Below are positions 3,985 through 50,922 of a DNA stretch of 64,000 bases, piece after piece. The stretch lies in NCBI RefSeq assembly GCF_011305995.1, contig NZ_CP049910.1:558001-622000 (forward strand), read 5' to 3'. Numbering within the stretch: the first letter of the stretch is position 1; the number at the start of each line of letters is the position of its first letter. Position numbers and translations under genes: made by a program. The notes below the pieces were generated by a model. That model made no database searches. It saw nothing but the letters and a program-made list of their open reading frames with translations, and was not told the DNA's origin. This stretch comes from Diaphorobacter sp. HDW4A (GTDB lineage Bacteria > Pseudomonadota > Gammaproteobacteria > Burkholderiales > Burkholderiaceae_C).

Positions 3985-4009
3985 TAAACAAATCGACGGC
4001 TGTCTCGTC
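3985..4009 (+). promoter_or_regulatory. Predicted ECF-sigma promoter of the assembly-line operon
   Basis: TAAA (3985-3988, extended TAAACAAA) is followed after exactly 17 bp by CGTC (4006-4009). The same architecture recurs at 37563, 43311 and 50898 and, on the minus strand, at 37524. It lies about 80 bases before the mbtH start, in a stretch (3754-4089) that otherwise holds only the small hairpin at 3771-3791. Confidence 0.7.
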
Positions 4010-4089
4010 TTTGAAGGCAGTGACCAGCGTGTCGGCAAACGGGCCGGCAAAGCGTGAGGTCGCTTTCTCTTCACTGCACGAGGATGCCC

Positions 4090-4344
4090 ATGTCGACCAG
4101 TTGCTTTGACCGTGAGGACGAGACTTTCATCGTTCTTGTCAACCACGAAGAACAGTACTCCATCTGGCCCCACTGGAAGGCCGTACCCGGCGGCTGGAAA
4201 GCCGTTGAAGGGGTCAAGGGTGACAAGAAGACCGTCCTCGAATACGTCGAAAAGACGTGGACGGACATGCGTCCGCTGTCGCTGCGTAAATGGATGGACG
4301 AGCAGGCCGAGAAAGCTGCCCAGTCTGCTGCTGCGACTGCCTGA
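4090..4344 (+). CDS. mbtH: MbtH-like NRPS chaperone
   Basis: This 84-residue protein carries the family signature: [10 protein letters not shown], then PGGW and a C-terminal [10 protein letters not shown]. MbtH proteins bind NRPS adenylation domains and are often needed for their folding and activity. It is the first gene of the assembly-line operon, preceded by the predicted ECF-sigma promoter. The start at 4090 is preferred over the ATG at 4084 because GAGG sits directly against the latter and at a normal distance from the former. Its stop overlaps the start of the next gene by one base. Identification is secure. Confidence 0.95.
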
Positions 4345-5096
4345 TGACTGGTTCCATGAGGTCGCCGTTCATCGATCTGCTGACCCTGCCGTGTGCGGGC
4401 GCGAGCGCCACCATGTACCTGCGGTGGCGCCGTCTGCTGCCGGAGTGGATCCGCGTGGTGCCGGTGGAACTGCCGGGGCGGGGCGGTCGCCTGGGCGAGC
4501 CTTTCGTCGAGGACTTCGGGCGGCTCGTGGCGCAGATCTGTGATGAGCAGGCGGCGGCGATGCAAGGTCGCTATGCCCTGTTCGGTCATAGCATGGGTGC
4601 CTTGTTAGCCTACGGAATGGCGCAGCACCAGCGGGCCCTGGGCAAGCCCCTGCCCCGGGCGATGTTCGTGTCTGGCAGTCCTGCGCCCTCGCGCCGCGAT
4701 CCGGACCGGTTTGCCGGCAAGGGCGACGATGCGGCCCTGATCGCCGACCTGCGCAAGCAGGGCGGTACGCCCGAGGAGGTGCTGGCCAGCGACGAACTGT
4801 TGCGCCTCACGCTCGACACCCTGGGCGCGGACTACCGTGTCTGCGAGAGCTTCCGATACCAGGCGGGCGAGCCACTCTCCGTGCCGATGCACGCCCTTGC
4901 AGGGCGGCAAGACGACATTGCCGCTGAGCGTGTCGAGGCCTGGCGGCGCGAGGCCGGCAGCATGTTCACGCTTGATTGGTTCGATGGCGGGCATTTCTTC
5001 ATTCGTCAGCACGAGCAGCGGGTGGTTGCTGCGGTGGTGCGGGAGTTGACGCATCAGTTTGCGGGGGTGTGCCATGCAGCCGCGGCGTCTGCCTGA
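4344..5096 (+). CDS. Type II (external) thioesterase
   Basis: This 250-residue alpha/beta hydrolase has the nucleophile elbow GHSMG (Ser83), an Asp in AGRQDDI and a His in DGGHFF, forming the catalytic triad of NRPS-associated type II thioesterases. Such enzymes clear misprimed or stalled acyl groups from carrier domains. The ATG at 4344 overlaps the mbtH stop by one base (TGATG), so the two are probably translationally coupled; upstream in-frame codons lie inside mbtH and are ignored. Length matches the family. Final release is more likely done by the thioesterase domain fused to the last NRPS at 32.3-33.1 kb. Confidence 0.92.
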   Translation: MTGSMRSPFIDLLTLPCAGASATMYLRWRRLLPEWIRVVPVELPGRGGRLGEPFVEDFGRLVAQICDEQAAAMQGRYALFGHSMGALLAYGMAQHQRALGKPLPRAMFVSGSPAPSRRDPDRFAGKGDDAALIADLRKQGGTPEEVLASDELLRLTLDTLGADYRVCESFRYQAGEPLSVPMHALAGRQDDIAAERVEAWRREAGSMFTLDWFDGGHFFIRQHEQRVVAAVVRELTHQFAGVCHAAAASA

Positions 5097-5775
5097 TTCG
5101 CTGCCGCCCGGCATCGACGTGTTCCAGCTTGCGCTCGATCTGGCGGCGCCGTTGTCAGACGCCGACTGGGGCTTGTTGAGCGAAGAAGAGGGCGTGCGCG
5201 CACTGCGCTTCCACAGGCATGACGACAAGGTCCGCTTCGTGGCCACGCGTGTGGCTCTGCGGCGACTGCTGGGTGCGCGTCTGCGTTGCCGCCCGCAGAC
5301 CTTGAGGTTCGTGACCAACCCATATGGCAAGCCACGCCTGGAGGCGGCTTGCTCGTCCAATCCGCCCGTCTTCTTCAACGTGTCCCATGCAGGCAGCTTC
5401 GCCTTGATCGCCCTGTCCGAGCGCGCGCCTGTGGGTGTCGACATCGAGCGTCGCGATCCGCGCTGCGATGTGATCGGCTTGTCGGCCCAGGCGCTGTCGG
5501 TGTTTGAGCGCCGACTGTCGGACGATCGGCACATCGACTTCTTCGAGTGCTGGACGGCCAAGGAAGCGGTGTTGAAGGCTCTGGGCCTCGGTGTTGCGGA
5601 GCATCTGCAGCAACTCTCGGTGTTGAAGCTCGGACCTGCCGAGGGGGCTTCCTATGACATACGCCACGAAGGGATGGACTGGCCTCGCGTGAGCGCCCTT
5701 CGCCTTGATTCGCCGCCCGGCTATGCCGCCACCCTGGCGTGGCAACCGGACGGCAAGGGAGAAATGAAGTGGTGA
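5074..5775 (+). CDS. 4'-phosphopantetheinyl transferase, Sfp type
   Basis: This 233-residue protein carries both hallmark motifs of Sfp-type transferases: GVDIE at 121-125 (Asp123 and Glu125 bind magnesium) and WTAKEAVLKALG at 160-171. It should attach phosphopantetheine to the carrier domains of the NRPS and PKS proteins encoded downstream. The ATG at 5074 has GGGGG about 7 bases upstream and overlaps the end of the thioesterase gene by 23 bases. Its stop overlaps a GTG that opens a 42-codon frame (5772-5900). Position in the operon supports dedicated activation of this pathway. Confidence in family is high; carrier specificity is inferred. Confidence 0.93.
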   Translation: MQPRRLPDSLPPGIDVFQLALDLAAPLSDADWGLLSEEEGVRALRFHRHDDKVRFVATRVALRRLLGARLRCRPQTLRFVTNPYGKPRLEAACSSNPPVFFNVSHAGSFALIALSERAPVGVDIERRDPRCDVIGLSAQALSVFERRLSDDRHIDFFECWTAKEAVLKALGLGVAEHLQQLSVLKLGPAEGASYDIRHEGMDWPRVSALRLDSPPGYAATLAWQPDGKGEMKW

Positions 5776-5900
5776 ATGAGTCGATATTCCGGGTTGAACG
5801 AAGGGCGCAGCTTGAATCCGGGTCTCTACCGCTGATCAACCAGTGGTGCTTTGTGTTCAGCGACGGGGTCGGATCCCGCCCTCATATGGGCGAATCCTGA
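5772..5900 (+). CDS. Possible 42-residue ORF coupled to the PPTase gene
   Basis: A GTG overlaps the PPTase stop as GTGA and opens a 42-codon frame filling most of the 151-base gap before the first NRPS. The product (starting [10 protein letters not shown]) matches nothing I recognise and has no membrane segment. The overlap is typical of translational coupling, but conservation is unknown, so it may be chance or the remnant of a larger gene. Confidence 0.25.
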
Positions 5901-5926
5901 GCGCATTTACGAGTGAGGGAAACCTG

Positions 5927-8900
5927 ATGACGACACAGTCCGTGTCGCAAGAGAACGCATTTGTTCATCCTGCGAATTTTGTTGAACGCCTGCAGCAACT
6001 CGTCGCCAATCGGCCCGAGGACATTGCACTGACCGTCGTGGCAGAACGCGACGACCATCTCGTCGAAACGGCCTTGAGCTATCGTGTTTTCGGGCAGCGC
6101 GTGCAAGCGCTCGCCGCCGTGCTGCAGGGCCGCTTCGAGAAGGGCGACCGGGTACTGATTCTGCTCGACAACGATGAGCACTATGCGGTCAGTATGTTTG
6201 CGTGCTTCCACGCAGGGGTGATCGCGGTGCCGGTGTTTCCGCCGGAGTCGACGCGCCCTCAGCACCTCGCTCGACTCGCAGGTATTGCCGCCGATGCGCA
6301 GGCGCGGGGCATTCTGACCTTGAGTTCACTCCAAGCCTTGGTGGGTGCTGCTGCCGGCCAGTTTGGTGTATCGGCGGCGGTGGCTGTGGATGAAGTCGAT
6401 CCGGCCGCTGCAGGCAATTGGCAGTCATATCAACCTGCCAGCGAGGACGTCGCCTTCCTGCAGTACACGTCCGGCTCCACCTCAGCCCCCAAGGGGGTGA
6501 TGGTGACGCACGGCAATCTGATGGCCAACGAACGGGCGATCCGTGAGGGGCTCTCGATTGGCGCCGATGACAAATTCGGCGTGTGGTCGCCCCTGTTCCA
6601 TGATATGGGCCTGATCGGTGGACTGCTGCAGCCCTTCTACAGCGGCATTCCCTGTGTGCTGTCTTCGCCGCGCTTTTTCCTGGAGCGTCCGGTGCGTTGG
6701 CTGGAGATGATTTCGCGTCATAAGGTAACGATCAGCGGTGGCCCGGACTTTGCATACCGCCTGTGCCTGGATCGGGTCAAGGAGGCACAGACCGAGGGGT
6801 TGGATCTGTCGAGTTGGCGCGTGGCCTACACCGGCGCCGAGCCGGTGCGGCAAGACACGATGGACGCGTTCATCGAGCGATATGCCCCAGTGGGATTCAG
6901 CGCCGGAGCGGTATACCCCTGCTATGGCCTGGCCGAGGCCACGCTTTTCATCACCGGAGGGCGTCGGGGCAGCGGCATGGTGGTGAGTCGCTTCGATACC
7001 GAGGCGCTCGCGAGGCGGCAGGTGGCAGTCGATGGCGACGGTGCCGCCTTGGTCGGCTGCGGCAGCGTTCCTTCGGATCATGAAGTTCGGATCGTCGACC
7101 CGCAGACCGGAGAAGTCGCTCCTGGGTGCGCCATTGGCGAGATCTGGGCTACGGGGCCCAGCATGGCGGCGGGCTACTGGAACAAGCCCTGCGAAACCGC
7201 GGAAGCGTTCGTCGAGCGCGACGGGCTCCGCTGGCTGCGTACCGGCGACCTGGGCTTCATGCACGAGGGTCAGATTTTCGTGGCCGGGCGGCTCAAGGAC
7301 ATGATCATCGTGCGTGGGCACAACATCTACCCGCACGACATCGAGCGCGTGGTCGAGGCCGAGGTGGAAGCGGTGCGCAAGGGCAGGGTGGCGGCCTTCG
7401 CGGTGGATTTGGATGGGCAGGAGGGGATCGGCGTCGCAGCCGAGGTATCGCGCGGTTTGCAGAAACTCGTGCCTCCGCAGGTGTTGGTTGATGCTCTGAG
7501 CTTGGCAGTGAGCGAGCAGTGCGGCGAGGCGCCGAAGGCGGTCGTACTCCTCAACCCCGGAGCGCTGCCCAAAACGTCCAGCGGCAAGCTGCAGCGCGCT
7601 GCCTGCCGCAGAGGTTGGGCGGAGCGTTCGCTCGATGCCTATGCGCTTTTTGAGAGCGGACGTTTCGTGACGGGCGAAGGCCGGACCGGTGGTGATCCGG
7701 CCACTGGCGATGACGCCGTTCAGGATGAGACGGCGCAGATGCTGGCTGGCATGTGGCGCCAAGTACTTGGCCACGAGTCGACGCGGACATACGCCAACGA
7801 CGCGCACTTCTTCACCCTCGGTGGCAACTCGCTGGCTGCAGTGCAACTGGCTGTGCGCATCTCGCAGAAATGGGGAATCGACTTCCCGATCAGGCAGATT
7901 TTTGAGTTGCCGCGCCTTGGGCGGCAGGCCGATGGCATTCGGGCTTGTCAGAAGGCCGGTGTCCGGACGTCGGTGGCCGGAATTCCTGTTCTGCCTCCTG
8001 AGCGTCGCGCCGAGCCTTTGCCTTTGTCCTCGGCCCAGCAGCGGCAGTGGTTCCTGTGGCGGCTCGATCCGCAAAGTACCGCCTACCACGTTCAGGGCGC
8101 GTTGCGCATTGCGGGCGTGTTGGATGCTGAAGCAATGCGCATGGCCGTCGATGGTTTGGCCAAGCGCCACGAGTCCCTGCGCACCGTGTTCCGGGCACGG
8201 CCGGATGGTGAGGTCGAGCAGATCGTTCGGGGAAATGGGGGCTTGGCTCTTCAGTTGTTCGACCTTCGCAGCACGGCGGACGAGGAGCGCGAAGCTCACG
8301 CCTCAGAAACACTGCGAGCGCTCCAGGTGCAGCCCTTCGATCTGACGGTCGGTCCCTTGGTTCGTGCGGCGCTCGTGCGGCTGGAAGATCAGGTCCACAT
8401 TCTGGTGCTGGTGATGCACCACATCATCTCCGATGGCGCTTCGATGCAGGTTCTCGTGGATGAGTTGGCTGCGTTGTATGCGGCTCGACACGCAGGTGAT
8501 GAGGCGTTGCCACCTCCCGCGATTCAGTATGCGGACTACGCGGCTTGGCAGCACGACCATCCCAACCAGGAGGCGCGAGCGCGTCAACTGGCGTACTGGG
8601 TGAAACAGCTCGGCGTGCCGCTGGGCGAAGCGCAGCCGGTTCTCGCCTTGTCTGTCGATCATCCACGTCAGGCGGTTGCCCGGTACCGGGCTGGGCGACA
8701 CGGCTTTGACCTCTCCGAGGGGCTGTCGGTCGGGTTGCGCGCGCAGGCGGAAGCCCATGGCGCCACGCTCTTCATGCTGTTGCTGGCGGCTTTCCAGGCG
8801 CTGCTATATCGCTACACCGGGCAGCACGACATCCGTGTTGGCACGCCGGTGGCCAATCGCTCGCGTGCCGAGCTTCAGCGTGTGGTCGGCTTCTTCGTCA

Positions 8901-11263
8901 ACACGCTGGTGCTGCGCAATAGCGTCGAGGGGCAGATGAGCCTTGCCCAGATGCTGGCGCAGGCCAGGGAGGCCGCGCTTGATGCTCAAGCGCATCAGGA
9001 ACTGCCATTCGAGCAGCTCGTGGAGGCGTTGCGGCCGGAGCGCAATCTGAGCGCAACTCCGCTCTTCGACGTGATGTTCAACCACTTACAGAGGGATCTT
9101 TCCCCATTGCAGCGGCCATTAGGCTGGTCGGTGTCCGAAGTGTCCATTGGGAATCAGCATGCGCAGTTTGAACTGACAGTTGACACGGTCGAAGACGCCG
9201 ACGGCCAGGTGCGTGTGAGCTTCACCTACGCCGAGGAGTTGTTCGAGGCGAGCACGATCGAGCGGATGGCGGGGCACTACGTGGCGCTGCTGCAAGCATT
9301 GGCTGATCGGCCACAGGAAGCGGTGGGGGATGTGGAGTTGCTCACTGACGCTGAGCGTCAGCAACTCAAGGGCTGGGGCGAGAACCTGCAGCGTTACCCG
9401 GGTGCTGATCCGGTGCACCGGCTGATTGAGCAGCAGGCCCAGGCCCATCCTGAAGCGGTGGCACTGCTCTTTGGTGACGAGGTACTGAGCTACGGCGAGT
9501 TGAACACGCGAGCCAACCGGTTGGCGCACCGGCTGATCAAGCTGGGTGTGAAGCCTGAAGTGAAGGTGGGCATTGCGGTGGAGCGCTCCCTCGAGATGGT
9601 GGTGGGGCTGTTGGGGATACTGAAGGCGGGCGGAGCGTATGTGCCGCTGGACCCGGAGTACCCGGCGGACCGGCTGGCCTACATGGTCGGGGACAGTGGG
9701 ATTGGGCTGCTGCTGACGCAGCGTGCGGTGAAGGAGCGCCTCCCGGTGGCCGAAGGGCTGGTGGTGCTGGAGCTCGATGGGCTGGATCTGGCGAAGGAGC
9801 CCATGCACAACCCTGATGTGGCGGTGCATGGGGAGAACCTGGCGTATGTGATCTACACCTCGGGATCGACGGGCAGGCCCAAGGGGGCTCAGCTTTGCCA
9901 TCGCAACGTTACCCGGCTGCTCAGCGGCACCGATGCATGGTTCCGGTTCGGTACGAATGACGTCTGGACGATGTTCCACTCCTACGCCTTTGACTTCTCG
10001 GTCTGGGAGATCTTCGGTGCGCTGTGCACCGGCGGACAGCTGGTCATCGTGCCCCACTGGGTCAGCCGATCGCCGGAAGACTTCCTGAAGATACTGCGCC
10101 GACACAGGGTGACGGTTCTCAACCAGACGCCTTCGGCCTTCAGTCAGCTTATGCATGTGCCTAGCCTCTACGACGAGTGCTTGGCGCTGCGTGCCGTGAT
10201 CTTTGGAGGCGAAGCGCTGGATCCACAGCGGCTGCGCCCGTGGATCGAACACTGGGGAGACCAGCTCCCTCAACTGGTCAACATGTACGGCATCACGGAG
10301 ACGACCGTACACGTCACCTACCGCCTCATCACCGAAGCGGATCTGCAAGGCCAGCGCAGCCCGGTCGGCGTAGCTATCCCGGACCTCGGCCTAAGAGTGC
10401 TGGACGGTTCGCTGAGTCCTGCACCGATTGGTGTGGCCGGCGAGTTGTATGTGGCCGGCGACGGCCTGGCGCGAGGCTACCTGGGCCGCCCGAGTTTGAG
10501 CGCGGAGCGCTTCGTGGCGGACCCGTTCGGCGAGGCGGGAGGTCGGCTGTACCGGACGGGGGACCTGGTGAGGTGGAACGGCGAAGGGCAGTTGGAGTAC
10601 TTGGGTCGGATCGACCACCAGGTCAAGATTCGGGGGTTCCGGATTGAGCTGGGGGAAGTGGAGGCGCAGTTGCTGTCGCAGCCCGAGGTGAGGGAAGCGG
10701 TGGTGGTGGCCAAGGAAGGTCCGGGCGGAGCGCGGCTGGTGGGTTACGTGTCGGCGCAGGCCGGGAAGGTGATTGAGGTGAGCGAGCTGCGCGAGCGGCT
10801 GGGCCGGGCGTTGCCGGACTACATGGTGCCCAGTGTGATCGTGGCGGTGGAGAGCTTGCCGCTCAATGCCAACGGCAAGGTGGACAGGAAGGCGCTGCCG
10901 GAGCCGGGGTTCGAGAGCGGGCAGGAGTACGAAGCGCCGCAGGGTGAGGTGGAAGAGGCGCTGGCCAGGATCTGGTCGGAGGTGCTGGGTGTGGAGCGCG
11001 TGGGCCGGCACGACAATTTCTTCGATGTCGGCGGGCATTCTCTGCTGCTGCTGAAAGTGCATCGTCGTATTGAGCAGGAACTGAAGGTGGAGGTCTCGGT
11101 GGTTGACCTATTCAAGTATTCGACGGTTGGGGCAGCGGCTGGGTTCTTGCGCGAAGGTGGGCGTCAGCCCGCCACAGATACCAAGCGTGTGGAAGAACGC
11201 GCGCGCAGACAGAAGGGAGCGTTTCTTGTGCGCAAACCCGTCGCCGAAAGGACTCCTACATGA
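5927..11263 (+). CDS. NRPS 1: FAAL-ACP-C-A(Thr)-T loading protein
   Basis: This 1778-residue enzyme starts the assembly line. A fatty-acyl-AMP ligase fills about residues 15-590 ([10 protein letters not shown] from 181). A carrier domain follows with LGGNSL (Ser635), then a condensation domain (about 695-1125, HHIISDG at 831), an adenylation domain (about 1150-1640, [10 protein letters not shown] at 1311) and a T domain (GGHSL, Ser1705). The specificity residues read D-F-W-N-I-G-M-V-H, which is the threonine code. It should activate a free fatty acid and condense it onto Thr. The ATG at 5927 has GAGGGA upstream; an in-frame start at 5843 is less likely. The stop overlaps the PKS start (ATGA). 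The adenylation flanks are nearly identical to those of all later modules. Confidence 0.95.
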
Positions 11264-14200
11264 GCAGCTCCATTGAGTACAACGCAAGCGGCGTCGAAGT
11301 GGCCATCGTTGGCATGGCCGGCCGTTTTCCTGGGGCTAACGACATCGATGCGCTGTGGCGGAACATTCGCGACGGTGTTGAATCAGTGACGGCATTTGCA
11401 GACCAAGAGCTGCGCGAGCGCGGTGTGTCCGAGTCCGACCTGACCGATGCGGAATATGTCAAGGCTGGGGTCTTGCTGGAGGGAATAGACCAGTTCGATG
11501 CTGGATTCTTCGGCTATTCACCGCGAGATGCCGAGCAACTCGATCCGCAGCACCGCATCTTCTTAGAAACTGCTTGGCACGCACTCGAACATGCAGGCCA
11601 TGCCGGAGGCGACCGGACGAAGCTCTTTGGCGTCTACGCGGGAAGCGGTGCCAACGTCTATTTGCTGCGTCACTTGCTGGCGGGAGTGGACTGGCGTTTC
11701 AGTGACATTGCTTCGCTGCTGGGCCTGATGAATGGCAACGACAAGGATTCTCTGGCAACCCGCGTGGCCTACAAACTGGATCTGCGTGGTCCGGCGGTCT
11801 CTGTGCAAACAGCTTGTTCGACTTCGCTGGTCGCGGTGCATCTGGCATGTCGCAGTCTGTTGAATCACGAGACCGACATGGCCTTGGCCGGCGGTGTCTG
11901 GCTCAATCTGTTGCAGGACGGTGGATACCACTACCAGCCCGGGGCGATCCTATCCCCTGATGGTCACTGCCGCGCCTTCGATGCTCGGGCGGCCGGTACT
12001 GTGATCGGTAGCGGTGCGGGCATCGTGGTGCTTAAGCGCCTGAGCGATGCGCTGGCCGAGGGTGACACGATCCATGCAGTGATCAAAGGCTCTGCCCTCA
12101 ACAATGACGGTGCAGCGAAGGTGGGTTACACCGCTCCCAGCGTTGATGGTCAGGCGGAGGTAATTCTGGCCGCACAAGCGATGGCAGAGGTGTCGCCGGA
12201 CTCAATCGGCTACGTGGAGGCGCATGGCACGGGCACCACGCTTGGCGACCCGATTGAGATCACCGCATTGACGCAGGCCTTTCGCACTGGTTCGAGCCGG
12301 CTAGGCTACTGCGCCATTGGGTCAGTGAAAACCAACGTCGGTCACCTTGATGCGGCCGCCGGTGTTACCGGTCTGATCAAGGCCGTTCTGGCGCTCAAGC
12401 ACCAGACGTTGCCGCCCAGCCTGAACTTCGAACAACCCAATCCGGCGATCGATTTTGCCAACAGCCCCTTCTATGTGAACACCGAAGCGCGGCCGTGGCC
12501 TGCGGGCGAGATGCCGCGCCGGGCCGGCGTCAGTGCCTTTGGTATGGGCGGAACCAATGTGCATGTCATTTTGGAAGAAGCGCCCTCGATGAGCGAAGGC
12601 AGCACTCCGCACGTGAATGGCGCCGAGCTGCTTTTTCTCTCGGCTCGCAGCGAGGAGGCACTGACTAGGTCTATCGAACAATTGGCACGACACCTTGGTC
12701 AGCGTCCTGAGCAGAATTTGTCCGATGTGGCGCATACCCTGAGGCGGGGGCGCAAGCATTTTGGACATCGGGCTGCGGTGCTCGCTCGCGAGCATGCCGA
12801 AGCCATAGGCGCGCTGACCTCTCGTACCGGCGCTTCATTCGTCAGCGGACACGTTCTGTCGGAGTGCCCGACGGTGGCCTTCTTGTTCCCCGGCCAAGGG
12901 GCGCAGCATGTCGACATGGCGCGTTCGCTCTATGAGCGTGAACATGTGTTCCGCGACACGGTGGATCGTTGCTGCGTGCGCCTGGCCTCACATTTGGCCT
13001 TGGACCTTCGTGAACTGATTTATCCGAAAGTTGTATCGGGGAACGAGGCGACCTTGCGTTTGGCTCAGACCGCCATCACTCAGCCGGCGCTGTTCGTGAT
13101 CGAGTACGCCATGGCGCAGCTCTGGATGAGTTGGGGGCTTAAGCCCGATGCAATGCTAGGGCACAGCATTGGCGAGTACGTGGCTGCTTGCCTTGCTGGT
13201 GTGTTTTCACTTGAGGACGCACTTGAGCTGGTGGCAGCACGCGGTCGGTTGATCCAGTCCACGGCATCTGGGGCCATGCTGGCTGTGAGCCAGCCAGAAG
13301 CAGAGCTGCGCCTGTTGGCTGTTGGCTGTGATGTCGCTGCGGTCAATGCATCCGAACTGGGTGTGCTCTCAGGGCCTGTCGAGGTGATCGATGCTGTCGA
13401 GCGCCAATTGGTCGAGCGTGGTGTTGCCTCGCGGCGTTTGCATGTCTCGCACGCCTTTCACTCTCATTTGCTCGACCCTGTTCTGCCTGATTTCCGGGTG
13501 ATGGTTTCGCGCATCGTCTTGAGCCCGCCGAAGATTCCCTTTGTATCCAATTTGACAGGCCGTTGGATCAAGCCTCAAGAGGCTTGTAGCGCCGACTACT
13601 GGGTACAGCACTTGCGGGGCACCGTGCGGTTTTCCGACGGTCTCGGCGAGTTGCTCTCCAAACCAGACCGTATGCTGCTTGAGGTGGGTCCAGGGGACGG
13701 CCTCAGTGGTCTTGCTCGGCGGCATCCACTGGTGGGTGCGCGCAGAGCTGTTCTTGCATCTCAGTGTCATCCTCGCGATCCCGCTTCAAGCGCGCAACAG
13801 CCGCTACGCTGCCTAGCTCAGCTTTGGACGCACGGAGTGGTACTCGATGCCGGCATGGCTTCTGACCACGGCAACCTTCGCCGGGTGCCTTTGCCCAGTT
13901 ATCCGTTTGAACACCAGTCGTATTGGGTTGAGGCACCGAGAGGAGATGCCGCTGGTGCTGTGGTGGTGAACCGGGCAATCGACCGGCGTGAGTTAGCCGA
14001 CTGGTTCTACGTGCCCGTTTGGCAGCGTACTGATCCCGTCACTCCTTGCATTGCGGCAGACCAAGGCGGTGTCCTGTTGATGCTGGGGGATGCGATAGGC
14101 GTCGGCAGGCGCATGGTCGAACATTTGCGGGCCGCAGGGCGATTGGTCGTATGCGTTGGCCGAGGAGTGCAATTCAGGCAACTGGACGCAGATCACTTCG

Positions 14201-15852: not shown

Positions 15853-15861
15853 GAACATATC

Positions 15862-43198: not shown

Positions 43199-43283
43199 TG
43201 GGCTTCCCCCGGATTGGTGCTGTTCCTTCGTTCGCGAAAGGCAACTTGGGGATGGATCTGATAGAGATGTCTCATGCACCCAT

Positions 43284-43308
43284 GACGTTCTGGCCGGGTG
43301 GATGTTCA
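43284..43308 (-). promoter_or_regulatory. Possible weak ECF-sigma promoter for the fhuF-like gene
   Basis: On the minus strand TGAA (43308-43305) and CGTC (43287-43284) are 17 bp apart, one base off the TAAA found elsewhere. It sits back-to-back with the plus-strand promoter at 43311, as in the divergent region at 37.5 kb. Confidence 0.4.
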
Positions 43309-43310
43309 GC

Positions 43311-43335
43311 TAAACAAATGAGCATGCTGCTCGTC
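43311..43335 (+). promoter_or_regulatory. Predicted ECF-sigma promoter for exporter-TonB operon
   Basis: TAAA (43311-43314, extended TAAACAAA) is followed after 17 bp by CGTC (43332-43335), 80 bases before the TTG start of the ABC exporter. Confidence 0.7.
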
Positions 43336-43414: not shown

Positions 43415-45076
43415 TTGCTTAGCTATCTGATTCAACAGTCGCGCAAGCTGCTGATCGCCGCGGCGTTGGCCAGTGTTACCAGCGGTGCATGCAGCGTGCT
43501 GCTCCTCACGCAGATCAACGCGGCCTTGACGGCGACGTCTTCGGCGGAGCACATGATGTTGGCGTGGCGTTTTGCGGCCTTCGCGGTGGCAGCGATGTTG
43601 AGCCAGATGGTGGCGTCGGTGCTGTTTGAGCGCTTGAACCAGCGTGCCCATGCCGACCTGCGGCGCTTCATTTCCGCGCGGGTGATCGCGGCAGACTTTC
43701 GCCGGCTGGAGGAGATCGGCGGCCCGAAGGTGCAGTCGGCCCTGTCGGAGCACAGCACGCAGGTGGCCGAGTTCTTCGTGAGCTTCCCGACGATCCTGGT
43801 CAACGCCATCATCGTGTCGGGATGCCTGGTCTACATGGCGTGGCTCTCCTGGCAGATCTTCCTCGCGGCTGTGCTGGTCATCGGGCTGGGCTCGCTGGGT
43901 TACCACTTGGCGCACCTGCGGGCGATCCGCCACCTGGACGTGGCATCCAAGGAGCAGGATCGCCTGTTCGACCACTTCCGCTCGCTGATGGAGGGGGCCA
44001 AGGAACTGCGTCTGCATGCTGCGAAGCGCCGTCGATTCTCTGATGATGTGCTGGGTGGCTCGATCGAGACGGTGCGGCGAGAACGCGCGTTCGGCATGTC
44101 GGTGTTCCTGGTGTCCTCCGCCTGGGGCAACTTCCTGATCTACGGCTTCATCGGGCTGGTGCTGTTCGTGCTCGTGGGCGACGTGCCCGAGCGGGGGCGC
44201 ATCATGACCGGCTTCGCGCTGGTCTTTGTGTACATGGTGGCGCCGCTGGAGAACCTGCTGATCGCGTTGCCGCGCGCCAATCTGGCCAAGGTTTCCGGTG
44301 CCCGCATCGATGAAATTACGCAGCAGCTGGAGCACACCGAGCGCGATGCCGCGTCCGAGACTCCATCTGGCTTGGAGAGCGCCGTGCTGCAGGGGGTCAG
44401 TCACCGTTACTACCATGAAGGTGTGGACGATCTGTTCACCCTGGGGCCCGTCGATCTGACCTTCTCACCCGGGCAAATCACTTATCTGGTGGGGGGTAAC
44501 GGCAGCGGCAAGACCTCGCTGGCCAAGCTGCTGGTGGGCCTGTACCGGCCGGAGCAGGGCGCCATCCTGATCAACGGCGAGCCGGTCGGCGACGCAAACC
44601 GCGATCGCTACCGCCAGAGCTTCTCGGCAATCTTTTCGGACTTCCACCTGTTCGAGCAAATGCTTGATGCTGCATCGGCCGAACTGGATGCGCAAGGCAA
44701 CGCCTTGCTGGAGAAGCTCCACCTGCAGCACAAGGTGCAGGTGCGCAACGGGGCCTTCACGACGCGGGCCTTGTCCCAGGGGCAACGCAAGCGGCTGGCC
44801 CTGGTGGTCGCCTATCTCGAAGATCGGCCCTTCCTGGTGTTCGACGAATGGGCCGCGGACCAGGATCCGGTGTTCAAGGATGTGTTCTACCGGGAGCTGC
44901 TGCCTGAGCTGAAGATCAAGGGCAAGGCGGTATTGGTGATCTCGCACGACGACCGCTATTTCCATCTGGCCGATCGCCTGATCCGCATGGAGAACGGACA
45001 GGTCGTGGCCATCGAGACGCCTGCCGAACGCACACTGCAGAAGTCACCGGCTGCGAATCTGACCGCCGTGTCATGA
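43415..45076 (+). CDS. Siderophore-precursor ABC exporter (PvdE/SyrD family)
   Basis: This 553-residue half-transporter has an N-terminal membrane domain (about 1-300, six predicted segments) and a C-terminal ATPase with Walker A GGNGSGKT near 360, signature LSQGQRKRL near 452 and Walker B FLVFDEWAADQDP. The DEWAADQDP form is typical of the cyclic-peptide/PvdE exporter family. It should move the acylated precursor to the periplasm, where the PvdQ-like acylase acts. The start is TTG 43415: AAGGTGA lies 7-8 bases upstream and no in-frame ATG is available. Its stop overlaps the PepSY gene (ATGA). The ECF-sigma promoter is 80 bases upstream. Confidence 0.92.
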   Translation: MLSYLIQQSRKLLIAAALASVTSGACSVLLLTQINAALTATSSAEHMMLAWRFAAFAVAAMLSQMVASVLFERLNQRAHADLRRFISARVIAADFRRLEEIGGPKVQSALSEHSTQVAEFFVSFPTILVNAIIVSGCLVYMAWLSWQIFLAAVLVIGLGSLGYHLAHLRAIRHLDVASKEQDRLFDHFRSLMEGAKELRLHAAKRRRFSDDVLGGSIETVRRERAFGMSVFLVSSAWGNFLIYGFIGLVLFVLVGDVPERGRIMTGFALVFVYMVAPLENLLIALPRANLAKVSGARIDEITQQLEHTERDAASETPSGLESAVLQGVSHRYYHEGVDDLFTLGPVDLTFSPGQITYLVGGNGSGKTSLAKLLVGLYRPEQGAILINGEPVGDANRDRYRQSFSAIFSDFHLFEQMLDAASAELDAQGNALLEKLHLQHKVQVRNGAFTTRALSQGQRKRLALVVAYLEDRPFLVFDEWAADQDPVFKDVFYRELLPELKIKGKAVLVISHDDRYFHLADRLIRMENGQVVAIETPAERTLQKSPAANLTAVS

Positions 45077-46434
45077 CGATTGGGCGGATTGGAGTCGCTC
45101 GTCTGCGTTGGGGCATCGATCGTCCTTTGCTCGTGCTGGTGCACCGCTGGGTTGGGCTGGTCATGGCGGGTTTTCTGCTGGTCGCCGGGCTGACGGGGGC
45201 GCTGCTGGCCTGGAACGAGGAGTTGGAAGCGGCCATCAGCCCGCAACTGTTTCGCGTGATGCCACCGGCACCCGATGCCGCGCCCATGGATCCGCTGGTG
45301 TTGCGGGAGAGGGTGCAGGCAGCCTATCCGCAGGCATTGGTGGCCTATGCCCCGCTGGCGGTTGAACCGGGGCACGCGCTGGTGCTGCGCGTGTTCGCGC
45401 TGCCGGACCCGGCCACGGGCATCGCGCCCGATCTGCCCAACAACCAGGTCTTCGTAGATCCGTATACCGGCCGCGTGCTGGGCGAGCGCAACTGGGGCGA
45501 CATCTCCCAGGGCTTTAAGAACCTGATGCCCTTCATCTACCGGCTGCACTACCAACTCGCACTGGGTGTGGTGGGCAGCTATGCCTTTGGTGTCATCGCG
45601 CTGCTGTGGACGCTGGATTGTTTCGTCGGTGCGTACCTCACCTTTCCGGCTCCGGTGCGCAAGGGGCCCAAATCGAACTCCGCGGCAAAGACCGGCGGCA
45701 AGCCCTGGCTGACGCGCTGGTGGCCTTCGTGGAGAGTTCGCTGGACGGGTGGCAGCTACAAGGTCAATTTCGATCTGCATCGCGCGGGCGGCCTGTGGAT
45801 GTGGGCCATGCTGTTCGTGCTGGCCTGGAGCAGCGTGGCCTTCAACCTCTCCGAGGTGTACGACCCGGTGATGAGAGCCGTCTTCAGGCACCAGCCCGAC
45901 GGTGGCACCTTGCAAGCGCTGCCCGCGCCGAAGATCGATCCCGCCATCGGCTGGCACAAAGCGCGCGAACTGGGCCGCCGGCTGATGGCCGAGCAGGCCC
46001 GGGTGCAGGGCTTCACCATCCAGCGCGAGGATGCGCTGATGCACGATCCGCGCAGTGGCCTCTATCGCTACAACGTGATCAGCAGCCGCGACGTCAGTCA
46101 TCGTTGGGGTGGCTCCAGCGTGGTGTTCGATGCCGACACCGGCGCCCTGAAAAGCCTATGGCTGCCGACCGGCGTGGCCAGCGGCGACACCATCCGAACC
46201 TGGCTGACCAGCCTGCACATGGCGGCGGTGGGCGGCGTCGTGGCCGGTCTGCCGATGAAGCTGTTTATCTGCACCATGGGTCTGGTGGTGGCCATGCTGT
46301 CGGTTACCGGTGTGATCATCTGGTGGAAGAAGCGCCAGGGGCGTGCGCGTCTGGCGGCTCGGGATCTGGCGGATCGGCCCGCCGACGGTGCAGGGTTGCC
46401 CAAGAAGGCAGCCACGCAGGACAGGGCTGCGTGA
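45073..46434 (+). CDS. PepSY-associated membrane protein (putative ferric-siderophore reductase)
   Basis: This 453-residue inner-membrane protein has a first segment LVLVHRWVGLVMAGFLLVAG, a PepSY-like periplasmic region, a conserved LHYQLALG helix, a third segment after FDLHRAGGLW and a C-terminal helix MGLVVAMLSVTGVIIWW. Such PepSY-TM proteins (PiuB, FoxB, FegB types) are linked to iron uptake and are thought to be membrane reductases using heme-binding histidines; several histidines lie next to its helices (HRW, LHYQL, DLHRAG, LHM). It overlaps the ABC exporter gene by 4 bases and is followed after 4 bases by the DUF5916 gene. It could reduce ferric siderophore in the periplasm, complementing the FhuF protein. 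Confidence 0.85.
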   Translation: MTIGRIGVARLRWGIDRPLLVLVHRWVGLVMAGFLLVAGLTGALLAWNEELEAAISPQLFRVMPPAPDAAPMDPLVLRERVQAAYPQALVAYAPLAVEPGHALVLRVFALPDPATGIAPDLPNNQVFVDPYTGRVLGERNWGDISQGFKNLMPFIYRLHYQLALGVVGSYAFGVIALLWTLDCFVGAYLTFPAPVRKGPKSNSAAKTGGKPWLTRWWPSWRVRWTGGSYKVNFDLHRAGGLWMWAMLFVLAWSSVAFNLSEVYDPVMRAVFRHQPDGGTLQALPAPKIDPAIGWHKARELGRRLMAEQARVQGFTIQREDALMHDPRSGLYRYNVISSRDVSHRWGGSSVVFDADTGALKSLWLPTGVASGDTIRTWLTSLHMAAVGGVVAGLPMKLFICTMGLVVAMLSVTGVIIWWKKRQGRARLAARDLADRPADGAGLPKKAATQDRAA

Positions 46435-46438
46435 CCTC

Positions 46439-48718
46439 ATGGGCAGACCATTCGGCACGCATTGCCCGGCCGGCTTTCGGCACCATGCGCCCACGGGTGG
46501 GCGCAGGTCTGGCCTTGTCCGCCGGGCAGCAGCCTTCGCCGTTGTATTGACCGTATCTTCGGTGATGGCATCGCAGGATTCCGTTCCTCCAGCGCCGACA
46601 CGTTTGGCCGCTGCCGTGCGTCTGCCTGCGACGACGCCCGCTGGCGATCCAGTGTCATCACTGGCTGATGCGGCACCGATCGGCGGCTTCGTCCAGGTGG
46701 CTCCCGTGTCTGGGGGTGCCCCCACTCGCCGAACCGAATTGCGCATGGCTCACGACGGCAAGGCTTTGCACATCCACGTGCATGCCTACGACCCCGAGCC
46801 CTCTGCCATCGTGGCGCAGCAGATGCGCCGGGACGTGGAGGGCATGCTCACCGAAGACCAGGTAACGCTGGTGTTCGACCCCGATGGGGACGGCCGCAAC
46901 GGCTACCTCTTCGCCGTCAATGCCAACGGTGCCCAGTTCGACGCCCTGATCTTCGACGGCGGCCAGATGCGTTTCGACTGGGATGCGCTGTGGCGCAGCG
47001 AGGCGCGCATCGAGGCCGATGGTTGGAGTGCCGACATCACGATCCCCCTGTCGGTGTTCGGGCGCGGGCGCCGAGTCAGCGGGGACGAGGTGCGCAACTG
47101 GCGCGTCAATGCCGAGCGCTGGATGCCGCGGGGCAGCGAGCGTGTGCGGCTGGCCGGCATCCAGCCCGACAAGGAGGTGTACTCCCTGGGCGACGCCCTG
47201 CCCATGCCGGCTGTCGTTGCCGAGGACCAGGACGGATGGGGGCTGCGCCTGAAGACATCCTTGCGCGCCACCAGCGAGTCGGCCGCCGCGTCGGGTACCG
47301 GCCGGGCGCGGCAGCGCCTGGAGCCCGGCCTGGAAGTGTTTCACGAGAGTCCCTCGGGGCTGCGCACGACTGCCGCGTTGAACATCGATTTCGGTGAAGC
47401 CGAAGCAGATGAGCGCACCGTCAACCTCACGCGCTTCGAACTCTTTCGCCCCGAGAAACGCGAGTTTTTTTTGCAAGACGCGGGGCGTTTCACCTTCGGT
47501 GGATTGGTGGAGAGCGCCGTCATCCCGTACTACTCGCGCCGGGTCGGGCTGGACGCGACCGGGCGAAGGCGCAGCCTGGATGCCGGTCTCAAGTTCTCGG
47601 GCCAGCTCGCCGGGACTGACTTTGGCCTGTTCGGCGCACGCGTGGCGGGAGGGCCGACGGAGCCCGGCGAGCCCAATCAACGCGCCGCCGAAGTGGCGGT
47701 GTTGCGCGTCGCGCGTCCGCTGGACAGCCGCAGCCGCGTAGGACTGATGGCCACCCGCGGCAACCCTGAAGGTACCTCAGGCAGCAGCCTGTGGGGTGTG
47801 GACTACCAGTTCCGGGACACCAACTGGGCGCCGCCGGGCGGGGAGGGGGGCAAGACCCTGGAGACGCATGCCTGGATGCTGGAATCGAGCAATGCCGGGT
47901 TGGGCAACGGCCGCTCCTGGGGCGCCAGCGTGAAGTATCCCAACGTGGGTCTCACCGGCAATGCCGAAGTGCAGCACATCGATGCACGCTTCAATCCGGC
48001 CCTCGGCTACCTCGCCGAAGCCGGCGTGACGCGAGGGCAGGGCGAATTGGGGTGGTGGCATCGCACGCGCAGGGGCGAGAGCATCATCCCCGAACTCGAC
48101 TGGAGTTTTCGGCGCAAGCAAGACGGCAGCGAGCACTCGTGGCTGTTGAATCCCGAGCTGGGTTACATCAATGCGGCGGGCGATACGGCGATGGTCGAAG
48201 TGTTCTTTGAGGGCGACCAACTGGCCTCTGCCTACACCCCGGTGCCCGGTGTCACCGTGCAGCCCGGCAGCTACGGCTGGCACTACCTGTTCGGCTACCT
48301 TGAGACTTCGGCGTCCCGCCCGGTTTCGGCACATGCGGAGTTGCGCAGCGGCGGGTACTACGACGGCCACCGTGACGACCAGGTCCTGCAACTGGCCTGG
48401 AAACCCAGTCCGTACTGGGGCTGGCGGGCCGGCCTGGCCAGGAACGCGATTCGCCTGCCGGCGGGCAGCTTCACCGTTCGTACGGCCACCTTGCGACTCG
48501 ATCACACGCCCAACACGCGCCTGGCGCAGAGCCTGCTGCTGCAGTGGGACAACGTGTCGAACGAAGTGGGTGTCAGCGCGCGCCTGCGCTGGTTGCTGGC
48601 ATCCGATCGGGAGCTCATTTTCTCACTCGACCGTCTGGGCTACACGGGAGCGCAACGCGATCTGCTTCCCAACCAGACCCGCGCCATGCTCAAGCTGGTG
48701 TGGAACCTGGAGCGTTGA
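46439..48718 (+). CDS. DUF5916 outer-membrane barrel with CBM9-like N-terminal domain
   Basis: This protein of 759 residues has an N-terminal signal region (AAAFAVVLTVSSVMAS), a CBM9-like beta-sandwich (LRMAHDGKALHIHVHAYDPEPS, then DQVTLVFDPDGDGRNGYLFAVN) and a long C-terminal region with alternating beta-strands (RFELFRPEKREFFLQDAG, then repeated barrel strands) typical of the DUF5916 family. The function of this family is not established. Its place between the PepSY protein and TonB, 4 bases from the former, puts it in the siderophore regulon; it may help release or capture the siderophore at the outer membrane. I start it at ATG 46439, just after the PepSY stop; an upstream in-frame start at 46343 lies inside that gene. 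Confidence 0.75.
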   Translation: MGRPFGTHCPAGFRHHAPTGGRRSGLVRRAAAFAVVLTVSSVMASQDSVPPAPTRLAAAVRLPATTPAGDPVSSLADAAPIGGFVQVAPVSGGAPTRRTELRMAHDGKALHIHVHAYDPEPSAIVAQQMRRDVEGMLTEDQVTLVFDPDGDGRNGYLFAVNANGAQFDALIFDGGQMRFDWDALWRSEARIEADGWSADITIPLSVFGRGRRVSGDEVRNWRVNAERWMPRGSERVRLAGIQPDKEVYSLGDALPMPAVVAEDQDGWGLRLKTSLRATSESAAASGTGRARQRLEPGLEVFHESPSGLRTTAALNIDFGEAEADERTVNLTRFELFRPEKREFFLQDAGRFTFGGLVESAVIPYYSRRVGLDATGRRRSLDAGLKFSGQLAGTDFGLFGARVAGGPTEPGEPNQRAAEVAVLRVARPLDSRSRVGLMATRGNPEGTSGSSLWGVDYQFRDTNWAPPGGEGGKTLETHAWMLESSNAGLGNGRSWGASVKYPNVGLTGNAEVQHIDARFNPALGYLAEAGVTRGQGELGWWHRTRRGESIIPELDWSFRRKQDGSEHSWLLNPELGYINAAGDTAMVEVFFEGDQLASAYTPVPGVTVQPGSYGWHYLFGYLETSASRPVSAHAELRSGGYYDGHRDDQVLQLAWKPSPYWGWRAGLARNAIRLPAGSFTVRTATLRLDHTPNTRLAQSLLLQWDNVSNEVGVSARLRWLLASDRELIFSLDRLGYTGAQRDLLPNQTRAMLKLVWNLER

Positions 48719-48851
48719 GGGGATGAGCATGGCACCACTCTTTCTGCGAAATCTCTCCCCTGTGGCTGAGGGGCCCTGCGGCGTTCGCCCTGCGTCCGAC
48801 ATCGAACTCGAACCCATCATCAAAGACAAGACCGAACGAAAGGGCGCCCGT

Positions 48852-49547
48852 GTGACGCGATCCTCCCCATCATTCCACGCTGAACATTGGCATCGCCTGG
48901 CCTGGGAACACGGCGCGCCACTCGTCCTGATCTGTACCGCACATCTGGCCGCGCTGTGGTGGTTGACGACCACGCTGAACCGCAGCCCGGTGCTGACCAC
49001 GCCGCCAGCGGTAGTGGGGGTGCTGGTATCGGCGCCTGCCGCGACGGTCGAGCCCAAGCCGCTACCGATGGCGCAGCAGCCTCGGCCCACGCCAGTGCCG
49101 CGCCGACGGCCGACGCCGCTGCCCCCGAAAGCCCCACCCTCGGAACGTGCTGTGGCGGCATCGCCGCCCGAGCCAGCCGCCCAGCCGCAGGCGGCAACTG
49201 CGGCTGTTGCGCAGGCGGCGCCACCTGCCGCCGCTCCTGAGGCCAAACAACCCGCCGCGCCCGTCACGCCACCACGCGCGGACGCGGCCATGCTCAACAA
49301 CCCCGCCCCGGCATACCCGGCGCAGTCGCGCCGCCTGCACGAAGAGGGCCGCGTGCTGTTCGATGTGTACATCCTGCCTAACGGCAGCGTTGGTCAGATC
49401 AAGCTCAAACGCAGCAGCGGCTTCCCGCGGCTGGACGATGCGGCGCTGGAGGCGATCCGCCGCTGGCGCTACGTCCCCGCCAAGCGGGGCGATGAGCCCA
49501 TTCCGTACTGGTACGTGCAGCCGCTCGATTTCCAGTTGGATTCGTAG
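48852..49547 (+). CDS. tonB: TonB energy-transducing protein
   Basis: The protein has an N-terminal membrane anchor (LVLICTAHLAALWWL), a long periplasmic spacer rich in Pro and Ala (about 95 residues with repeated KP, RP and AP dipeptides) and a C-terminal TonB domain (AYPAQSRRLHEEGRVLFDVYI, then GSVGQIKLKRSSGFPRLDDAALEAIRRWRY). It should couple the proton-motive force to the receptors. I place the start at GTG 48852, giving 231 residues, with AAAGGG upstream; ATGs at 48723 and 48729 in the same frame, after GAGGGG, are possible and would add about 42 residues. ExbB and ExbD follow directly, forming a dedicated Ton system inside the siderophore regulon. Confidence 0.88.
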   Translation: MTRSSPSFHAEHWHRLAWEHGAPLVLICTAHLAALWWLTTTLNRSPVLTTPPAVVGVLVSAPAATVEPKPLPMAQQPRPTPVPRRRPTPLPPKAPPSERAVAASPPEPAAQPQAATAAVAQAAPPAAAPEAKQPAAPVTPPRADAAMLNNPAPAYPAQSRRLHEEGRVLFDVYILPNGSVGQIKLKRSSGFPRLDDAALEAIRRWRYVPAKRGDEPIPYWYVQPLDFQLDS

Positions 49548-49596
49548 GCGCGGCATCCGAAATGCATTCCCTGTTCCCCAAGAAAGGACTCACTCC

Positions 49597-50334
49597 ATGA
49601 CCAACAACCCATATGGCATTGCCGCGCTGTGGAGCGGCGGCGATCCGGTGATCCGTACCGTGGCTGTTTTGCTGCTGCTGATGTCGATCGCCTCATGGTT
49701 CATCATCGTCACGCGCGTCTGGCGTGTGGTGAAGTTGCGCCGTTCGGCCCGCGCCTCGGCCGACTTCTGGCATGCGCACAGCTTCGGCGAGGGGCTGCAC
49801 ATGCTCGGTGGTGATGCGGAGGGCAATCCGTTTCGCCACCTGGCCGAAGAGGGCAAGGCCGCCATCGACCACCACGCCAGCAATCGGGAAGACCTGCACG
49901 GTCAAATCAGTCTGGCCGAATGGCTGACCGAGAGCCTGCGTGGTGCCATCGACGAGAGCGCCGAGCGCCTGCAAAGTGGCCTGTCGGTGCTGGCTTCGGT
50001 AGGGGCCACCGCGCCCTTTGTCGGCCTGTTTGGCACCGTGTGGGGCATCTACCATGCGCTGGTGGGCATCGGCGTGGCAGGACAGGCCAGCATCGACAAG
50101 GTGGCCGGCCCGGTGGGCGAGGCGCTGATCATGACGGCCTTTGGTCTGGCCGTCGCCATCCCCGCCGTGCTGGGCTACAACGCGCTGATGCGGGTCAACA
50201 AGGGCATGCTGGGCAGGCTCAACCGATTCGCTCGGCAACTGCACGCCTACTTTCTGACCGGCGCACCGGTGGCGCGCGGCAATGGGGCCGGCAACGGCAA
50301 GGCCGTGCCCGCACGCGCCCTGGCCCAGGCTTGA
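49597..50334 (+). CDS. exbB: ExbB-type proton channel protein
   Basis: This 245-residue MotA/TolQ/ExbB-family protein has three membrane segments: IRTVAVLLLLMSIASWFIIV near the N-terminus, then LSVLASVGATAPFVGLFGTVWG and GEALIMTAFGLAVAIPAVLGY in the C-terminal half. The conserved GLFGTVWGI stretch is diagnostic. With ExbD and TonB it forms the inner-membrane motor for outer-membrane uptake. The ATG at 49597 follows AGAAAGGA; the frame is open upstream into tonB but without a plausible start. It lies 49 bases after tonB and 11 bases before exbD. Confidence 0.93.
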   Translation: MTNNPYGIAALWSGGDPVIRTVAVLLLLMSIASWFIIVTRVWRVVKLRRSARASADFWHAHSFGEGLHMLGGDAEGNPFRHLAEEGKAAIDHHASNREDLHGQISLAEWLTESLRGAIDESAERLQSGLSVLASVGATAPFVGLFGTVWGIYHALVGIGVAGQASIDKVAGPVGEALIMTAFGLAVAIPAVLGYNALMRVNKGMLGRLNRFARQLHAYFLTGAPVARGNGAGNGKAVPARALAQA

Positions 50335-50345
50335 GGAGTACCGCC

Positions 50346-50759
50346 ATGGCCTTTGGAAGCGGACTCGACAGCAGCGACGACATGGTCAGCGAGATCAACA
50401 TGACGCCGCTGGTGGACGTGATGCTGGTGCTGCTCATTATCTTCATCATCACGGTGCCGGTGCTCACGCATTCGGTGAAGCTGGATCTGCCGCGTGCGGA
50501 CAATACTCCCAACCTTGTCAAACCCGAGAGCGTGAATGTCTCAGTCACCGCCGACGGAGCGCTGCACTGGAACGACGACACCATCAATGAGGCGCAACTG
50601 ACCTCACGCCTTGAAGCGGCCGCCACGCAGCAGCCTCAGCCTGAAATCTTCATTCGCGGCGATCGCAAGGTGGACTACGAGCGCGTCGTGAAGGTGATGG
50701 CGGCTGTGCAGAAGGCCGGGGTGTTGAAGCTGGGCTTCGTCACCGAGCCGGGGGGCTGA
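50346..50759 (+). CDS. exbD: ExbD-type protein
   Basis: This 137-residue protein has the family start EINMTPLVDVMLVLLIIFII, with the functional Asp in the single membrane helix, followed by a periplasmic domain. It completes the TonB-ExbB-ExbD complex encoded here. The ATG at 50346 has GAGG at a normal distance. The gene is the last of the plus-strand block from the exporter; a promoter of its own for the next gene lies at 50898. Confidence 0.93.
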   Translation: MAFGSGLDSSDDMVSEINMTPLVDVMLVLLIIFIITVPVLTHSVKLDLPRADNTPNLVKPESVNVSVTADGALHWNDDTINEAQLTSRLEAAATQQPQPEIFIRGDRKVDYERVVKVMAAVQKAGVLKLGFVTEPGG

Positions 50760-50897
50760 GCAAGGTATTGCCGCGGTGCTTACCGGGCATGCAGTGATAG
50801 CTGGCTTCTGCCCCCACCGGGTTCTTGCCGACCTGATCTGTGCAAATTGGGTGCGGACGGGGTTCCAAAGAGAGTTGAGTGGAAAGACCGCTCGAGC

Positions 50898-50922
50898 TAA
50901 ACAAACTCACGGATTGGACGTC
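50898..50922 (+). promoter_or_regulatory. Predicted ECF-sigma promoter for the Fur paralogue
   Basis: TAAA (50898-50901, extended TAAACAAA) is followed after 17 bp by CGTC (50919-50922), about 86 bases before the Fur-family start. The rest of 50760-50947 shows no other element. Confidence 0.68.

Follow-up and report, generated by a model that had tools for sequence, protein, structure and literature searches.

The closest described relatives of the system reported here are iron-starvation sigma factors of the extracytoplasmic function (ECF) family. Their published promoter, the iron-starvation (IS) box, reads TAAAT-N16-CGT (PMC2235872, PMC6037834). OrbS and MbaS, the ornibactin and malleobactin sigma factors of Burkholderia, belong to ECF09, now within ECF243; the OrbS consensus is given with TAAA and CGTC in the same arrangement (PMC4786211), and its regulon is described as three promoters (PMC9023288). 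For PfrI of Herbaspirillum seropedicae, an IS box before mbtH was reporter-tested in pfrI and cirA mutants (PMC6037834), and sigma-70 family genes are reported at the del, dlc and dlp clusters (PMC13122642). Here we analyzed 64,000 nucleotides of Diaphorobacter sp. HDW4A (contig NZ_CP049910.1, below C1, positions 558,001 to 622,000; hereafter the window), which carry a delftibactin-like siderophore cluster. We put at roughly 0.87 the probability that the window holds a PvdS/OrbS-like iron-starvation ECF-sigma regulon.

Five promoters of the form TAAACAA-N14-CGTC, with exactly 17 bp between TAAA and CGTC, had been predicted at 3985, 37563, 43311 and 50898 (plus) and 37524 (minus), and all five proved exact in position and strand. 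A sixth exact match, absent from the original prediction, lies at 819-843 (plus). The fifth -35 base is C in all six, unlike the T of PvdS sites or the A/T of OrbS sites. The features of the regulon are as follows, with L and G numbers denoting loci and genomes of our comparison.

2725..2753, plus: sigma-70-like promoter of the sigma gene, TTGACT-17-AAGAAT (9/12 in a consensus scan, a match and not a proof)
2742..2760, plus: Fur-like box GTGAATAAGAATTATTCGC, overlapping the sigma-70-like promoter (12/19 against the E. coli consensus)
2813..3337, plus: ECF sigma factor, 174 aa (Pfam Sigma70_r2 and Sigma70_r4_2, above cut-off)
3492..3740, plus: stand-alone DUF4880 protein, 82 aa, putative soluble anti-sigma or pro-sigma partner (Pfam DUF4880)
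3985..4009, plus: predicted sigma promoter of mbtH and the assembly line (exact motif; counterpart in 68/70 testable loci)
4090..33131, plus: MbtH, thioesterase, phosphopantetheinyl transferase and nonribosomal peptide synthetase/polyketide synthase (NRPS/PKS) assembly line (domain matches; MbtH by similarity to annotated MbtH)
33875-36067, minus: TonB-dependent receptor without signalling domain (domain match)
36125-37450, minus: lysine/ornithine N-monooxygenase (domain match)
37500..37524, minus: predicted sigma promoter of the ornithine monooxygenase and TonB receptor genes (exact; divergent pair recurs in L137, L139 and L038, partly in L108)
37563..37587, plus: predicted sigma promoter of the formyltransferase, histone deacetylase-like and acylase genes (exact; recurs in L137, L139 and L038)
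37621..42124, plus: formyltransferase, histone-deacetylase-fold protein and PvdQ-like acylase (NCBIfam PvdQ match below cut-off)
42416..43279, minus: FhuF-like ferric reductase (domain match)
43284..43308, minus: predicted variant sigma promoter TGAACATCCACCCGGCCAGAACGTC of fhuF (counterparts at this position in L136, TAAACG..CGTC, and L139, TGAACG..CGTC)
43311..43335, plus: predicted sigma promoter of the exporter/PepSY/TonB-ExbB-ExbD operon (exact; counterparts precede the L139 exporter and the 46343-type gene of L136)
43415..50759, plus: ABC exporter, PepSY protein, unnamed protein, TonB, ExbB and ExbD (domain matches)
50898..50922, plus: predicted sigma promoter of the Fur-family and copper-protein genes (exact; recurs before the Fur paralogue in L136)
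50955..51973, plus: Fur-family regulator and plastocyanin/azurin-type copper protein (domain matches)

The assembly line holds NRPS proteins plus one PKS protein, and the exporter matches the NCBIfam cyclic-peptide exporter above cut-off. The circuit had been called complete: the sigma gene and the five promoters before functional blocks stand, but the DUF4880 partner, the fhuF site at 43308 (minus) and the match at 819 were missing from it. An Rfam scan of the window gave nothing at gathering score.

The exact motif did not occur once in dinucleotide-preserving shuffles (n = 100). The host genome (6.76 Mb) has seven exact matches, six of which fall inside the 64-kb window, about 1% of the genome, and the reversed control pattern has six matches genome-wide. 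The Poisson probability of at least six exact sites in 64 kb is 5e-11 at the control rate and 1e-15 at the outside-window rate. Near-matches agreeing at 10 of 11 letters are absent from the window. The loose core TAAA-N17-CGTC is rarer genome-wide (45) than its reversed control (184), so TAAA alone is unconvincing and the specificity sits in the CAA extension. Many equally good matches inside genes across the genome had been named as the outcome that would speak against the regulon; instead, a single exact match lies outside the window (C1:3703530). It overlaps a gene end just upstream of aspS, is also found in one same-genus genome (G018) and has no visible link to iron. A chance or compositional origin without function, for which the commonness of the loose core could be cited even though it stays below its reversed control, is almost certainly wrong, and for the five predicted sites it is ruled out by the empty shuffles, the crowding of six of seven genome matches into 1% of the genome and the conservation in related loci, which together bear out the view that the extended match makes chance unlikely.

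That conservation was assessed between species. Searching species genomes with an alignment of sigma factors returned 244 relatives; the 80 best, selected on sigma similarity and nothing else, form a set of 81 loci together with the window, and 70 of these are testable, with mbtH downstream on the same strand. The footprint pattern, T[AG]AAC-N16-CGTC, demands C at the fifth -35 base, and it is present between the sigma gene and mbtH in 68 of the 70, with 57-112 bp from the end of CGTC to MbtH homology. Sites with a spacing one base shorter or longer, or in the reversed pattern, numbered zero among the same 70 loci. The misses are L035 and L110, the latter having TAAATT. TAAAC is found at 27 of the 68 footprint loci and TGAAC, the form used by a sister clade, at 41; the 68 sites comprise 60 distinct sequences (23 and 37). 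Some redundancy is present: the window has near-copies in L031 and L032, and L049, L054 and L058 are near-copies of each other.

Promoters deeper in the cluster also recur. The divergent pair between monooxygenase and formyltransferase is found in G013 (L137), G052 (L139) and Cellvibrio (L038), and in Derxia (L108) such a pair separates the monooxygenase from the exporter. In G013 (L136) and G052 (L139), fhuF has a site of its own, divergent to that of the neighbouring operon, and for this reason the variant at 43308-43284 (minus) is taken as the fhuF promoter. G013 has a site before its Fur paralogue too.

Within the host's family, a sigma relative at E 1e-30 occurs in 8 of 150 genomes, host included. 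The 150 genomes hold 49 exact matches. Four sigma-positive genomes account for 16 of them (7, 5, 2 and 2), the other four sigma-positive genomes have none, and 33 are spread over 25 of the remaining 142. Exact-site clusters near siderophore genes are seen in two of the four with matches, and in this sample clusters occur only in sigma-bearing genomes. A plasmid search with window positions 2700-6700 found related NRPS clusters, including those of Methylosinus, Variovorax and Eleftheria, the last with TAAACAA and one extra base ahead of CGTC. On the Methylosinus trichosporium plasmid, TAAACAAATCGAAAGCTGCCACGTC (L118:20009-20033) stands before mbtH in a related NRPS/PKS cluster of an alphaproteobacterium. 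TAAACAA..CGTC is kept there, no sigma gene is annotated in the 43-kb stretch, and the site may represent an orphaned regulon.

The reading of these promoters as one ECF-sigma regulon is supported by the cross-genus footprint, the orthologous promoters and the genome association. Sequence and comparison show that the sites are present, that their spacing is fixed, that they precede orthologous genes and that they go with the sigma clade. In the circuit we propose, low iron would cause Fur to leave the promoter of the sigma gene, and the sigma factor would bring RNA polymerase to the TAAAC-N16-CGTC promoters of mbtH and the assembly line, the monooxygenase and receptor, the formyltransferase and acylase, the exporter/TonB operon and the pair of Fur-paralogue and copper-protein genes; fhuF would join through its variant site.

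The sigma factor has regions 2 and 4 only, a trait of PvdS and OrbS, and 505 relatives at E 1e-3. Four recognition-helix columns have no letter common to the two promoter types: column 150 is A (once V) in the TAAAC type and L in the TGAAC type, column 151 T (once A) and G, column 155 F (once I) and G, R, A or S, and column 158 K or R and A. Because the -35 element (TAAAC to TGAAC) and the recognition helix switch together, direct contact between sigma and DNA seems likely, although the joint switch counts as one or two events: in a tree built without region 4.2 the -35 label needs at least two changes, though the origin may be single. Alternatively, the promoters could be real but read by another ECF sigma factor of the host. 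Two full-length DUF4880 (FecR-type) proteins elsewhere in the genome make other iron-group sigma factors likely; against this, the promoter lies beside a window-type sigma gene in 68 of the 70 testable loci, the window's sigma is the only sigma-profile match in its carrier island, with one weak match outside it, and -35 element and helix change together. Reading by another sigma factor is accordingly improbable, and the window's own sigma factor is retained as the presumed reader.

Fur control of the sigma gene is suggested by the 12/19 box, scored against the E. coli consensus, over its sigma-70-like promoter. Fur-like boxes of at least 12/19 lie within 300 bp upstream of the sigma gene in 59 of the 81 loci, and the mean best score is 12.4 vs 10.3 in base shuffles; L049, L054 and L058 score only 9-10. 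Since 14 positions in the window score at least 12, the claim is carried by place and recurrence. In G015, AATGATAATCGTTATC is found upstream of the sigma gene.

Within its final 27 residues, the window's sigma factor has only C148 and C167, and hence no four-cysteine C-terminal cluster. Its domain 2 is cysteine-rich (residues 51, 62, 63 and 74); of 68 aligned sigma factors, 67 have C62 and 60 have C63. These cysteines possibly form a metal or redox site, and C62/C63 could be considered as an iron sensor. Sigma relatives of 81% (L033, Achromobacter aegrifaciens) and 85% (G015) identity have no such siderophore cluster in the surrounding DNA that was compared; the DUF4880 gene is present in L033.

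Two traits of ECF09 can be compared across the 81 loci. Adjacency to mbtH is seen in 70, and the trait of having no cognate anti-sigma gene nearby does not extend to these loci, 68 of which have a DUF4880 open reading frame (ORF) beside the sigma gene, with a presumed anti-sigma role. DUF4880 is a FecR/PupR-type anti-sigma domain. The ORFs (~82 aa) in the 68 loci end 0-28 residues after it, with no membrane-spanning or periplasmic part, the protein has 37 relatives, and its model is closest to the cytoplasmic domain of PupR. A search of solved-structure sequences with the DUF4880 alignment gave nothing at E 1. We infer that the 82-aa protein binds the sigma factor in the cytoplasm, where a soluble anti-sigma buffer is likelier than a pro-sigma helper. 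Given that it has no membrane part and that no signalling domain was found in the window's two receptors, the regulatory input probably arises in the cytoplasm and not through cell-surface signalling.

The DUF4880 protein may instead be a pro-sigma factor, an activating or stabilising partner. FecR fragments of 51-85 residues are described as activating FecI (PMC9249621), and the stand-alone protein resembles such a freed fragment. However, a 67-residue fragment of FpvR is described as inhibiting PvdS and FpvI, the closer sigma type (PMC9249621), and 13 of the 81 loci have no DUF4880 protein, which suits a brake better than an indispensable helper. The activating role is a serious possibility, though not the one we favour, and the soluble anti-sigma buffer is kept as the working assignment.

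On sequence grounds, the siderophore cluster is carried by a PRTRC-type island, which spans about 535.6-673.5 kb of C1 in alignment with G013 and G015 and encodes PRTRC ParB and PRTRC D proteins, both above cut-off. An integrase lies at the right end of the island, with dihydrofolate reductase and thymidylate synthase genes beyond it. Inside the host island the window's sigma is the sole sigma-profile match; G015 and G013 have weaker sigma-like matches at the island border. The first 9.9 kb of the window are 99.4% identical to the end of a 691-kb contig of a Zoogloea metagenome-assembled genome (MAG), and related clusters, with sigma factors of 55-57% identity, lie on islands of Roseateles, Acidovorax and Thauera (L049, L054 and L058), which are 95-96% identical to each other over the ~20 kb compared. 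Transfer of the cluster is claimed partly from MAG contigs (L031 and L032) that may be misbinned, and partly from these three loci, which carry no MAG label. The idea that the island is an integrative and conjugative element was dropped, since the large ORFs selected for scanning gave no conjugation-family match. The following features concern the island.

819..843 (C1:558819), plus: exact motif in the island backbone, 0.7 kb before the recombinase-like gene, in a conserved hairpin block; possible sigma site
1544..2524, plus: tyrosine-recombinase-like island protein (Pfam Phage_integrase, 27.9 bits, cut-off 27.1)
C1:653953: TAAAC-N16-CGTC backbone site, 31 bp before the ORF of an unnamed conserved protein
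C1:671650: TAAACA-N15-CGTC backbone site, just before the second stand-alone DUF4880 gene
C1:671678-671971 in G000, the host (L116:13678-13971): second stand-alone DUF4880 gene, convergent with the integrase at the island end (slightly below the Pfam cut-off)

Site 819 belongs to the island and was dropped as a siderophore promoter. The recombinase-like gene has a coding signature (30/16/79 substitutions by codon position), and the ORF at 864-1583 after the 819 site was rejected as a gene, its window-G015 substitutions being even across codon positions (38/39/46). Adjacent hairpins, GGACTCC..GGAGTCC and GAGGAGT..ACTCCTC, occupy window positions 795-900 beside a helicase-like gene and are nearly invariant in the sigma-bearing islands compared; the block may serve the island as a cis site, for example an origin. 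It occurs in 1 of 399 order-sample genomes (the host itself) and 3 of 399 family-sample genomes (G000, G013 and G015), and a viral-contig scan for it found nothing. The large helicase-like protein (window 1-803, minus, and L112:15785-19975; 1.8 kaa frame) weakly resembles DISARM DrmD and phospholipase-D anti-phage families, with every score far under the cut-off. Its gene is present in 9 of 200 family genomes, and a plasmid search with window 1-2800 returned distant helicase matches only. The six helicase-gene genomes besides G000, G013 and G015 lack the hairpin block in the 1.5-kb flanks of their seven helicase loci and lack the second DUF4880 gene, and the four of them that entered the sigma search gave no match.

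Apart from the siderophore promoters, three TAAAC-N16-CGTC sites lie in the host backbone, all recurring in G013 and G015. In G015, whose sigma factor is 85% identical but which has neither these siderophore promoters nor the adjacent DUF4880 gene, the same three are the only TAAAC-N16-CGTC sites in 149 kb, the reversed control giving none and four neighbouring spacings together one. The second DUF4880 gene is conserved in G013 and G015 and is found in 4 of 200 family genomes (G000, G013, G015 and G122), all with a sigma relative. These observations raise the tentative idea that the sigma factor is wired into its carrier island and may transcribe backbone genes (the 819 region, C1:653953 and C1:671650) in iron starvation, with the second DUF4880 protein feeding back on it.

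The competing view, that the three island-backbone sites, 819 included, are conserved island DNA matching the motif by chance, is the one towards which we lean. Conservation of the hairpin block around 819 reaches beyond the motif, the three islands are 71-88% alike in aligned backbone, both near the sites and farther out, similarity alone keeps all nine such letters in both relatives at 15% of aligned positions, and two of the three sites do not have the full TAAACAA. Against it, the 81-kb host backbone has three sites vs 0.07 expected (P 6e-5; 17 other spacings total one), and at C1:671650, which precedes a DUF4880 gene, the spacer has diverged (9 of 16 letters kept) with all nine motif letters intact; site 819 could not be scored in this analysis. 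Were the wiring into the island to hold, expression of a PRTRC-type island, and possibly its mobility, would be coupled to iron shortage, tying that shortage to a mobile element that carried siderophore clusters between bacterial families.

A neighbouring stretch of the window (52632-58076) carries AraC regulator, TonB receptor, O-methyltransferase and MFS genes and is a separately moving module. Its proteins are 89-91% identical to those of G013, the neighbouring siderophore proteins 37-85%, and the DNA from 610.6 to 635.3 kb 93%. A Fur-like box at 53592 and the start of its receptor gene overlap. Promoters of the TAAAC-N16-CGTC type are absent from the receptor/methyltransferase/MFS block at 53-58 kb.

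Compared with known systems, the window's promoters share TAAA, CGT and the spacing with the IS box and differ in the fifth base, C instead of T. The kind of regulon is known from the IS box and the OrbS consensus, and the TAAAC/TGAAC form is a variant, a statement made without a literature search dedicated to that form. TAAACAA-N14-CGTC offers a genome-readable signature for this branch of sigma factors, and the two promoter types are a natural experiment, pairing one -35 base with four recognition-helix positions, that is useful for the ECF specificity code. Delftibactin-type clusters likewise combine NRPS with one PKS module, a monooxygenase and a formyltransferase, and the window's cluster presumably resembles del further at the gene level. 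With this promoter set, the regulon of a delftibactin-like siderophore cluster can be tested directly; the passages of PMC13122642 on sigma factors and regulation describe neither a promoter set nor a small partner.

With the PvdS regulon of Pseudomonas, the window shares spacing, TAAA and CGT (PMC2235872) and a PvdQ-like acylase, and differs in having TAAAC/TGAAC where PvdS has TAAAT; FpvR is described as membrane-spanning (PMC4256889), whereas the window's putative regulator is soluble. The PfrI regulon, which serves serobactins, also has an IS box before mbtH, but PMC6037834 describes an STN-domain receptor and no anti-sigma gene nearby, where the window has a DUF4880 gene and no STN receptor: its two receptors match plug and barrel only (E 1e-3), and a further island receptor lacks the STN domain too. 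OrbS and MbaS resemble the window's sigma in lying beside mbtH and NRPS genes and in serving several promoters of one siderophore cluster; they are under Fur control (PMC9023288, PMC8908255), which is putative for the window's sigma gene. OrbS has a four-cysteine C-terminal cluster that the window's sigma, of only 174 aa, does not have. Neither a stand-alone DUF4880 partner of such sigma factors nor a mobile island served by an iron-starvation sigma turned up in the open-licence literature. Biosynthesis sigma factors accompanied by a dedicated soluble FecR-type domain depart from the absence of an adjacent anti-sigma gene described for OrbS and MbaS (PMC8908255). The DUF4880 protein matches the cytoplasmic domain of FecR and PupR, as in FecI-FecR and PupI-PupR, but without their transmembrane or periplasmic part, and if the wiring into the island is real, the sigma factor and its soluble DUF4880 partners could be a cytoplasmic remake of cell-surface signalling.

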